Assembly (NCBI GenBank): GCA_021323995.1
Contig: JAJPJY010000069.1
Span: 1-43,147, forward strand
Origin: a bacterium
Lineage (GTDB): Archaea > Thermoproteota > Bathyarchaeia > 40CM-2-53-6
Length of the DNA: 43,147 nt
Direction of reading: 5' to 3'
The notes under the pieces are model-generated. The model was not told the origin of the DNA, searched no databases, and worked only from the letters and a program-made list of their open reading frames with translations. Shown piece after piece: positions 25,807 to 33,961 of the stretch (the first letter of the stretch is position 1; each line of letters begins with the position of its first letter). Both the position numbers and the translations under genes were made by a program.

Positions 25807-26050
25807 TTCCTCGCCTTGGACAGGGAGCCGTGAAAATGACGCCGTTATTCGATGAATTGTTTGGAGGTGACTCATACGATAAACGACTGGAGCGGAATCC
25901 AAGAACCAGAATCTAAGCATTCATTCGGATCGTTTCCTCACAAAATCGCCGCGCTCGTGCTATTGCTGGAACGAAAAGCGGTCCTAAAAATCTACGAGAT
26001 AGCAAAGTGCGGCATCCTAGCTCTGAGTCTGGACGATGCAGGACCCTAAA
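25807..26050 (+). pseudogene. Internally deleted duplicate of the SPFH gene at 28524-29519, including the last codons of the gene upstream of it
   Basis: 25807-25968 matches 28470-28631 with about 13 mismatches in 162 bp; 3' end shares caggaccctaaa with the end of the full-length gene. Confidence 0.85.
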
Positions 26051-26579: not shown

Positions 26580-27902
26580 TCATAGACCTAGCAAAGAGAC
26601 GAATTCAGCTAGGCCACTCACGGCTGAAGACGAGAGGTCTTCAAGAACACCATTTCTCCCGTATTGACTGGTTATCTGGGTAGCGGCGTCTCCAAACGAG
26701 GAAGGATTTTGTACAGTGTCGCCACCCGATGCGAAACCAGATCCCCCAGCAATTATTACATCCAACGTGGTTGACCTATTGTCCTTTCCTTCTGCCGTAT
26801 CCGTCAAATAAGCGGTTGCCGCAGATGCTCCGCCAGCTATCGTACGCGACAAAAGGGTCGCTGCTTCTCCTCCCCCGAGAACCGACCCTGTCGCGCCTGC
26901 TTCAGGTCCTACGAGTCCGCCTGCAGCTCCCAAAGCAGCTCCCGATAGGAAGCTCGCTCCGAAACCTTCGGCAGAGCATCCCTCCGTGCTGTGGCTGCAA
27001 CCGAGGAGATAGAAGTCTCCTGAAAATCCTCCTCCTGCAACTCCCCCGATGAGCACTGGTGCCACGAAAGCATCTCCCGCTCCTGCCGTAGCGACACCTA
27101 CGACCACTAGGACTATTACAGAGATGACTATTGTTCGGAATTTGGCGTCGGTGTTCCATTTGTAGATGAGACCTTGCAGGTGGAGTGGGTCGCTTGATGC
27201 GCCGCCGATTTCTTCGTAGATGTTATGGTATCTGCAGTAGTCAATGATGCACGTTCCAAGGCCACTACCTGTCGCGGACAGTCCGGAGGGGTCTGCAAGG
27301 TCAGCGGGTGAGTCTAGAACGTAGATGTACCTGTTTAGAGTTTCAGGACTAGACAATTGGCCGGGCTTCGAGTCGGGACTGATGAACCGGCCAATCGACG
27401 GGTCGTACCATCGCTGGTAGTAGTAGTACAGGCCTATGCTTGGGCTGTATGGTTTGCCTGTGAACTTGTAGGTCTGGGTTCCCGTGGAGCTATTGTCGTG
27501 CCCGTAGGGTCGATAGTTGTCTGAGAATATTATCGACCCGTTCGCCGATGATACTAGTCTGGTATTCCCGATAGCATCGGGATGATAGTAGATGATTGTT
27601 GGATTGTTCGAGCCTGCGTTGTTCACCATGGCTATACGGAGTCCGTCTGCGTAAACATAGTCGTTGTCTGGACCGAAGGTTCCAGTCTCGCCAAGAGTCT
27701 CGGTTCCCAGATATCCATAGAAGACGTAGTATGCCGTGTCTTTCGACTCGACTCTCCGGCCCATACCTTCAAACAGCCTCCTGTTTGTCGCATAAACGCT
27801 ACGGCATGGAAATGAAATTATCCGGCCTCTTATCGAAGGGCTTGACAAGCCGAAGAGGTAGGTCTCCGTATCCTGCCGCTGCACCATGGATGTTCCATCC
27901 AC
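26580..27902 (-). CDS. RHS-repeat-associated core domain protein with hydrophobic/glycine-rich C-terminal region
   Basis: YYHPDAIGNTRLVSSANGSIIFSDNYRPYGHD...YKFTGKPYSPSIGLYYYYQRWYDPSIGRFISPDSKPGQLSSPETLNRYIYVLDSPADLADPSGL. Confidence 0.9.
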   Translation of the reverse strand: MDGTSMVQRQDTETYLFGLSSPSIRGRIISFPCRSVYATNRRLFEGMGRRVESKDTAYYVFYGYLGTETLGETGTFGPDNDYVYADGLRIAMVNNAGSNNPTIIYYHPDAIGNTRLVSSANGSIIFSDNYRPYGHDNSSTGTQTYKFTGKPYSPSIGLYYYYQRWYDPSIGRFISPDSKPGQLSSPETLNRYIYVLDSPADLADPSGLSATGSGLGTCIIDYCRYHNIYEEIGGASSDPLHLQGLIYKWNTDAKFRTIVISVIVLVVVGVATAGAGDAFVAPVLIGGVAGGGFSGDFYLLGCSHSTEGCSAEGFGASFLSGAALGAAGGLVGPEAGATGSVLGGGEAATLLSRTIAGGASAATAYLTDTAEGKDNRSTTLDVIIAGGSGFASGGDTVQNPSSFGDAATQITSQYGRNGVLEDLSSSAVSGLAEFVSLLGL

Positions 27903-28523: not shown

Positions 28524-29519
28524 TTGGAGGTGACACATACGATAAACAACTGGAGCGGAGTACAAGAACCAGAATCTAAGCACTCATTCGGATCGTTTCC
28601 ACACAAAATCGCCGCGCTCGTCCTACTGCTGATCATCGCACTGACTTCGCTAGGCGTGATTGGATCAGACCTCTACACGGTCGGAGTCTCACAAGTCGGA
28701 ATACTAGTGAACCCCTACAATGGAGACTTTAGCGGACCAGTGGCGGGACCAACTCTCGCATGGAAAAGCGTCCCATGGATCAATGTGGTCATTGTTTCGA
28801 CCTCGGTTCAGACCATACAGATGGTCGGTCCCGGCAACAACATCAACGTGTTGACCAAAGACAATCTCAATGTCTCGCTAGACGTTACGGTGCGCTACGA
28901 AGTAATGGCGACCAACGTCATTGCGCTCTACAAACGCTATCCCGCGCTATCGTGGGAAGGCGATGCGCTCGTACCCTTGATCAGGTCTAGCGTTAGAGAC
29001 GTTGTCGCAAACTATACTGCTGACGAGCTTCAAGCGGTGAGAGCGCAGATACAGGCGGGCGTAGAAGTCAGGTTGACAACAAGTCTCGCGACTGAACCAT
29101 CGCTCGCGAATGACATTCAGCTAATCGAGATCAACGTTAGGGACATTGTGCTACCGAACAGTTTCCTCGCCGCTATCCAGGCCAAGCTCAACGCTCAACA
29201 ACAACTGCTCCAAGCACAGTTCCAAGCCCAACAATTGATCGTGACAGCTCTCGGCCAGCGCAATGCTACAATCATAGCGGCTCAGGCCTTGGCGAACGCG
29301 ACACTGATCCAGGCAGCAGCCAACGCGCAGTCCATCAGTAGCATCATCTCACAAGTCGAGGCTCAGACAAGAACAACCTGGAATTCGACCCAGGTCGCCG
29401 ATTTCACCAACATGTACACTGAGCTGCAACTACTGAGTAAGCTGACCGGCCAGAACCTGTACATCTTCGTTGGCAGCCCTAATGGCTCACTGATTATTCC
29501 CACCAAGTCAGGACCCTAA
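28524..29519 (+). CDS. SPFH / Band-7 (prohibitin-like) membrane protein; likely start GTG 28530
   Basis: TM, then MVGPGNNINVLTKDNLNVSLDVTVRYEVMATNVIALYKRYP...VRDVVANYTADELQAVRAQIQAGVE...IVLPNSFLAAIQAKLNAQQQLLQAQFQ; GGAGGTG SD-like sequence precedes the GTG. Confidence 0.9.
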   Translation: MEVTHTINNWSGVQEPESKHSFGSFPHKIAALVLLLIIALTSLGVIGSDLYTVGVSQVGILVNPYNGDFSGPVAGPTLAWKSVPWINVVIVSTSVQTIQMVGPGNNINVLTKDNLNVSLDVTVRYEVMATNVIALYKRYPALSWEGDALVPLIRSSVRDVVANYTADELQAVRAQIQAGVEVRLTTSLATEPSLANDIQLIEINVRDIVLPNSFLAAIQAKLNAQQQLLQAQFQAQQLIVTALGQRNATIIAAQALANATLIQAAANAQSISSIISQVEAQTRTTWNSTQVADFTNMYTELQLLSKLTGQNLYIFVGSPNGSLIIPTKSGP

Positions 29520-32571: not shown

Positions 32572-33492
32572 ATGGGCAAGCGACCGATTCCAGAACTTAC
32601 GAAAGACCAGATTCGTCATCTACTTGAAGTCATAAGAACATCAAAGACAGAGACCACCAAACGAGACTACCTCATCTTTAAACTGATCATCGAGCACAAC
32701 TTCAAACCTGGCTGGGTCGTGGGAGTAGACCAGCCGGTTAGAGACGTAGAAGATGGTATCCACATTGAAGACCTTGTCGGCGATTCCAAGGTACGAATAC
32801 GAGTGTGGAGCGGACAAACGAAGGAATCTGCTGAGATTGACATTACCAAAGAGACAATGAAAGAACTTCGTCGCTACGCTGGCGACAGGAAGGTGGGTAT
32901 GCTGTTCGACCTCACCGTGGGCCGTATCGAACAGTTGACAAAGAAGTATTGTGAAGAAGCCGGAATTCCTTCGAAGCATGTTCGCCCCGAGACACTTAGG
33001 AATCGATTGAACCCGAGCAGGCCCATTTCGTTTCAGGTAGAACTTTCGTGGGTGGAAGACGACATAATGAGACAAGCCCAACGTATGACGTACTATTATC
33101 TACTGAACTATTGCATCGAGAACAGCATACGCCGCTTGGTCTCGAAAACGCTAGCGAACAAACATGGCCCTGATTGGTGGACTAAATGCACGTCCCCCGA
33201 AATACAGAAACACGTTGACGACACACGAAGTGAGGAAAGGAATCTCCCGGGAGCCATTAGGTCGGAGAATCCTTTGGATTATCTGTTGCTTCGAGAGCTA
33301 TGGGACATTATGAAGGCCAATTGGGCCGACTTCTCGGATAGAGGATTGAATAGGCCCGCGATGAGCCACGCGTTTCTTACACTCAACCAGCTTAGAAGAG
33401 TGATCGCCCACAACGTCGAGCTGCCCGAGAGAGAGAAGAAGAGATTCGAGATCTTTGAAGCAGATTGGCGTGATCTATTAGTAGGCTATTAG
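32572..33492 (+). CDS. Degenerate tyrosine-recombinase-like domain fused to a HEPN (Swt1-like) domain
   Basis: N-term ELTKDQIRHLLEVIRTSKTETTKRDYLIFKLIIEHNFKPGWVVGV...IRVWSGQTKESAEIDITKETMKEL...ETLRNRL; C-term helical YYYLLNYCIENSIRRLVSKTL...LNQLRRVIAHNVELPEREKKRFEI with RRVIAH = RX4H. Confidence 0.7.
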   Translation: MGKRPIPELTKDQIRHLLEVIRTSKTETTKRDYLIFKLIIEHNFKPGWVVGVDQPVRDVEDGIHIEDLVGDSKVRIRVWSGQTKESAEIDITKETMKELRRYAGDRKVGMLFDLTVGRIEQLTKKYCEEAGIPSKHVRPETLRNRLNPSRPISFQVELSWVEDDIMRQAQRMTYYYLLNYCIENSIRRLVSKTLANKHGPDWWTKCTSPEIQKHVDDTRSEERNLPGAIRSENPLDYLLLRELWDIMKANWADFSDRGLNRPAMSHAFLTLNQLRRVIAHNVELPEREKKRFEIFEADWRDLLVGY

Positions 33493-33667
33493 CGATCAAG
33501 AACTAGACAATCTTGAATTAAGACCCTCTCAGGGATTTGGCCTGTAGAAGCGAGACCCGAGCAGTTTCGCCCTTGTGTCTGAGCAATAGCCGAAACATTG
33601 CTCAACTCTACAGACCTTGGGTCAGCGGAGCGGCTGGTGCGAGCGACTACGCGTCAACCCCTCACGA

Positions 33668-33961
33668 ATGGAACAAGAACTCGCGATCAGGCTACAAGAA
33701 GATGGAATACGCTACCAGACACAGGTCGAGATATCAGTGACGACGGCCGACTTCTACTTCCCGCTGGAGTCTAGACCCTTGCTAGTGTTTGTCGATGGTC
33801 GGGTCCCTCTTGGAACCACGCAGATGATCAAGGACGAAGAGTTACGGTCACTGTTACGGAAGAGAGGATACAAAGTCCTCGAGCTACACTACAAGAACTA
33901 CTCGGATAATGCAAGGGACAATTTGTATGGCAAGCTAATGGAGTGCATAGGCGGGAGATAA
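33668..33961 (+). CDS. Vsr/DUF559-like (PD-(D/E)XK-fold) protein
   Basis: MEQELAIRLQEDGIRYQTQVEISVTTADFYFPLESRPLLVFVDGRVP...MIKDEELRSLLRKRGYKVLELHY. Confidence 0.65.
   Translation: MEQELAIRLQEDGIRYQTQVEISVTTADFYFPLESRPLLVFVDGRVPLGTTQMIKDEELRSLLRKRGYKVLELHYKNYSDNARDNLYGKLMECIGGR

Follow-up and report, generated by a model that had tools for sequence, protein, structure and literature searches.

Effectors of the HEPN type, including the Swt1-type HEPN, and restriction-enzyme-like (REase) effectors are already known to sit behind exchangeable N-termini. The AbiJ N-terminal domains (AbiJ-NTD), for instance, are common to HEPN, REase, TIR or kinase effectors (PMC3710099). The 306-aa protein that we describe here resembles the AbiJ-type proteins, in which a single N-terminal domain serves different effectors (PMC3710099), but its own N-terminal domain is a degenerate tyrosine recombinase. 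In the open-access papers searched, no exchangeable effector N-terminus is described as a dead tyrosine recombinase, and the text of the HEPN survey (PMC3710099) does not report an XerA-like N-terminal half, although such absence is no proof.

The window (the whole stretch of 43,147 nucleotides that we analysed) is contig C135 in a 2.0-Mb archaeal draft genome, and the fusion gene occupies positions 32572–33492 of its + strand. A first-pass annotation had placed this ORF and a nuclease-like ORF downstream of it correctly, and the motifs that it quoted (HNFKPGWVVG, ETLRNRL and RRVIAH) are all present. Residues 9–144 (32596–33003, + strand) align, as far as the HxxR box, with the catalytic domains of archaeal XerA and of short recombinases found in the same genus. 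The NCBIfam profile recomb_XerA_Arch matches these residues over model positions 97–220 of 263 (E 2.9e-6) at 27.1 bits vs the 220 bits of its equivalog score, and a profile made from the three known fusion sequences finds, among solved structures, chain positions 97–233 of 4a8e (E 1.6e-4), which we take to be Pyrococcus abyssi XerA; the Pfam integrase match of this half is weak (E 0.18).

Unlike archaeal XerA, the fusion has neither a core-binding domain nor a Tyr-bearing end: its recombinase homology ends at about residue 144 and the HEPN domain starts at about 149, with the H/W box and the region of the nucleophilic Tyr missing. XerA alignments place K45 (codon 32704–32706, + strand) at catalytic Arg I, which is Lys in all three HEPN fusions, and E140 at the His of the HxxR box, a change to Glu or Asn; in the window's box, E140-T-L-R143 (32989–33000, + strand), the Arg is retained. 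Without these two catalytic residues and the end that would carry the Tyr, recombination by this domain should be impossible, in line with the first-pass annotation, which called this half probably inactive.

The C-terminal half, residues 149–300 (33016–33471, + strand), is like HEPN_Swt1 (PF18731) and the PADLOC candidate defence family PDC-M34B in being a HEPN domain with an RX4H motif. HEPN_Swt1 covers residues 181–291 at 31.4 bits (E 2.6e-7; Pfam gathering score 27.5), with 32.9 and 32.4 bits for relatives, and PDC-M34B matches the HEPN halves of the three fusions with E values of 1.6e-30 (the window's), 1.6e-27 and 6.4e-35. R275 and H280 of the RX4H motif (33394–33411, + strand) are unchanged across five sequences, two of them from HEPN relatives other than the three fusions, and this agrees with the earlier assignment to the RNase-type HEPN domains. 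Unlike those families, the window's fusion has no partner gene that we could find beside it. AlphaFold supported only part of this architecture: the HEPN part is a good helical model (pLDDT reaching 93 when taken over blocks of 10 residues), whereas the N-terminal half is poor and the mean pLDDT is 55.6 overall. The recombinase part does show the helix-helix-three-strand-helix order expected for the fold, at low confidence, and Foldseek returned no significant match for the model. On the strength of its profile matches and alignments, the 306-aa protein is a genuine fusion of recombinase-like and HEPN halves.

Two more genomes of the genus, G002 and G015, encode full-length relatives (L087/L088) at 35–39% identity and with R275 and H280 invariant; among the 18 genomes of this genus, three have the fusion. 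We detected no other full-length fusion among 260 genomes of the class or in a 401-genome sample of the phylum. Broader genome contigs yielded nothing when searched with the single fusion protein and, with the three-sequence alignment, only a pair of HEPN-only proteins besides the two known fusions; viral contigs searched with both the fusion and the neighbouring nuclease gave no relatives. A 585-aa frame in G426 was considered as a further fusion and rejected, since it is a normal XerA that ends in low-complexity sequence. The genus relatives include the MAGs 'Crenarchaeota archaeon 13_1_40CM_3_52_17' and 'Candidatus Bathyarchaeota archaeon UBA185'. The sequences that went into a FastTree tree were short and divergent, and we drew no evidence from the deep branches of that tree.

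The same N-terminal domain also precedes other C-termini. An XerA-like domain is joined to a C-terminus matching PADLOC REase_II in a 346-aa protein (G003) and in a 348- to 374-aa protein (G001), and G001 also encodes a 289-aa partial protein in which an XerA-like domain is joined to a second, different C-terminal domain. (The loci in this genus with an XerA-like domain on REase_II-like or other C-termini are L037:10917-11957, L038:3524-4570 and L009:3-869.) Elsewhere in the class the REase_II-type domain follows an OGG-like N-terminus or shares a protein with a DNA-methylase domain, and the recombinase-like domain therefore occupies the position of a DNA-recognition domain. The HEPN domain of the fusion is likewise seen behind other N-termini (DUF2240 and DUF2196). 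One PDC-M34B HEPN protein, whose N-terminus is DUF2240-like, lies near a helicase with HamB-type and Hel308-like features (L036, G015:C22, 3243-7566), and this is a candidate defence locus. The genus also holds short catalytic-domain-only recombinases that retain the Arg and Tyr, and from which the fused domain could plausibly derive. The pairing of XerA-like domains with different C-termini suggests a catalytically inactive module for DNA recognition whose effector can be exchanged.

We put at roughly one in two the probability that the 306-aa protein is a stand-alone sensor–effector, which most likely defends the cell against foreign DNA. The N-terminal domain, though unable to recombine, may have retained DNA binding; on meeting invading DNA or a recombination structure, it would set free or bring into register the HEPN dimer of the C-terminal halves, and the RX4H motif of this dimer would, by analogy with the HEPN family, cut RNA and stop growth. 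The recombinase-like domain would then be a swappable recognition module, one that also heads restriction-enzyme-like proteins in this genus. That swap of effectors behind a common N-terminal domain is the strongest support for the sensor–effector reading, and it strengthens the proposal in the first-pass annotation that a dead recombinase fold acts as a sensor; the retention of the fusion in three genomes of one genus with R275 and H280 invariant points the same way. Against it, the members number only three, all in one genus, and the N-terminal model is poor; against a role in defence, HEPN_Swt1 proteins have non-defence roles too. More tentatively, and at well under even odds, a disarmed tyrosine-recombinase catalytic domain may serve archaeal immune proteins as an exchangeable DNA-recognition module, joined in one branch to a HEPN RNase and in another to nuclease domains, such that foreign recombination sites or structures trigger cleavage of RNA or DNA.

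The fusion could instead be a toxin-like HEPN RNase that senses no foreign DNA, its recombinase-derived half serving only for dimerisation or self-inhibition, or for binding the host XerA, as a growth control or a guard of the recombinase. We recognised no antitoxin gene near the fusion, so such a toxin would need control in cis, and the many short catalytic-domain-only recombinases of the genus are possible pairing partners. That this N-terminal domain also occurs fused to a restriction-enzyme-like domain, however, points towards DNA recognition, and we regard the toxin-like explanation as rather unlikely.

The neighbourhoods of the three fusions count against the sensor–effector reading. Apart from a single HNH_3 gene, we recognised at these loci neither a defence island nor a gene of a mobile element, and no neighbour that all three have in common. 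The HNH_3 gene, of the homing type (L035:4233-4679), lies immediately upstream of the G015 fusion, and by eye a UDG-like ORF lies downstream of the G002 fusion. The parts of the window that were scanned contained no recognised defence gene, and a Pfam scan of the neighbours of the window's fusion showed no adjoining helicase or ATPase. Synteny within the genus holds to the right of about 38.0 kb and, as blocks in rearranged order, to the left of about 30.8 kb; for the intervening 31–38 kb, none of the eight relative loci that we compared is syntenic. Farther to the left, a protein on the − strand (26580–27902), archaeal and with no Pfam match, carries by eye an RHS-like core motif (YYYYQRWYDPSIGRFISPDS), and a fragment at 25861–25968 shares 94% identity with the N-terminal 36 aa of the Band_7 protein at 28524 and represents a partial duplication. 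The G002 fusion has housekeeping-like neighbours, as might be expected if the fusion were a domesticated, non-toxic regulator or RNA-processing protein combining a DNA-binding half with an RNA-binding HEPN, and eukaryotic Swt1 does control cellular RNA (PMC3710099). The patchy distribution (3/18 genomes of the genus), a best profile that is a predicted defence family and the intact RX4H motif nevertheless make domestication improbable.

Still less probable is a decaying remnant, formed when a deletion joined a recombinase gene to a HEPN gene and since deprived of function. The recombinase catalytic residues are indeed gone and a decayed repeat adjoins the gene, but the 306-aa frame is open, and the full-length relatives have kept the HEPN motif invariant in three species at only 35–39% identity.

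That adjoining repeat contains the nuclease-like ORF, which the first-pass annotation had joined with the fusion in one module. The ORF encodes 114 aa from a TTG (33617–33961, + strand) and begins 124 bp after the fusion gene if counted to TTG 33617, or 176 bp if counted to ATG 33669. It scores 20.4 against the DUF559/MTES_1575 (Vsr-type) profile, just below the gathering score of 20.6; its siblings in the genus reach 21.0–26.1 bits, and 4 of 5 full-gene copies tested pass the DUF559 cut-off. The Vsr-like character and the atypical residues noticed earlier are both supported. The siblings are in this respect like known DUF559/Vsr-like nucleases (PF04480, PF18741), but unlike them the gene is a multi-copy repeat in this genus. 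The window's copy has ACC in place of the start ATG of other copies, and has Pro after VDG (VDGRV) at the position where all other aligned copies keep an invariant His. Full-gene copies are under purifying selection (dN/dS about 0.1–0.2); the copy in the window, judged by its sequence, looks damaged.

The repeat copy spans 33553–33929 (+ strand): in blastn searches with the locus, full copies start at about 33553–33564 and finish near 33909–33929. Its 5′ module of about 150 bp (33553–33709, + strand) is also dispersed without the remainder of the nuclease gene; this module, present also at G016:C144 (L042), consists of a 52-nt conserved leader plus about 33 codons of the DUF559 nuclease. The repeat has its own 5′ boundary, with 23 distinct copies sharing an identical first base and the sequences upstream of it failing to align. 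The module has 6 copies in the window's genome and 14 in G016, at least 7 of these within 20 kb; its 5′ end is fixed wherever it is dispersed. None was detected in G002, G015, G001 or G005. A guide RNA or intron in the leader was also considered and is unsupported, since the leader has no Rfam match and shows no covariation.

The Vsr-like neighbour is best explained as one copy of a mobile repeat, now decaying, that lies outside the fusion system and is no partner of the fusion. Because the nuclease belongs to a dispersed repeat whose module is undetected in both other fusion genomes, where the fusions have different neighbours, the pair is most simply a chance neighbourhood, and neither its co-occurrence nor its status as one module held up. 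Cooperation of the two genes, for which one could cite their adjacency on the same strand and the giant MTES_1575 proteins that join a Vsr REase to a Swt1-type HEPN (PMC3710099; the nuclease ORF weakly matches the MTES_1575 REase profile), is very improbable for a repeat with unrelated sequence upstream of its other copies and a window copy that has lost both its ATG and the invariant His, and we rejected the pair. The locus is a clear example of an adjacent nuclease that looks like a partner and turns out to be a dispersed repeat.

If the N-terminal domain of the fusion binds DNA, recombinase folds would join the recognition modules that immune proteins have borrowed, and this archaeal lineage would gain a testable candidate defence family.
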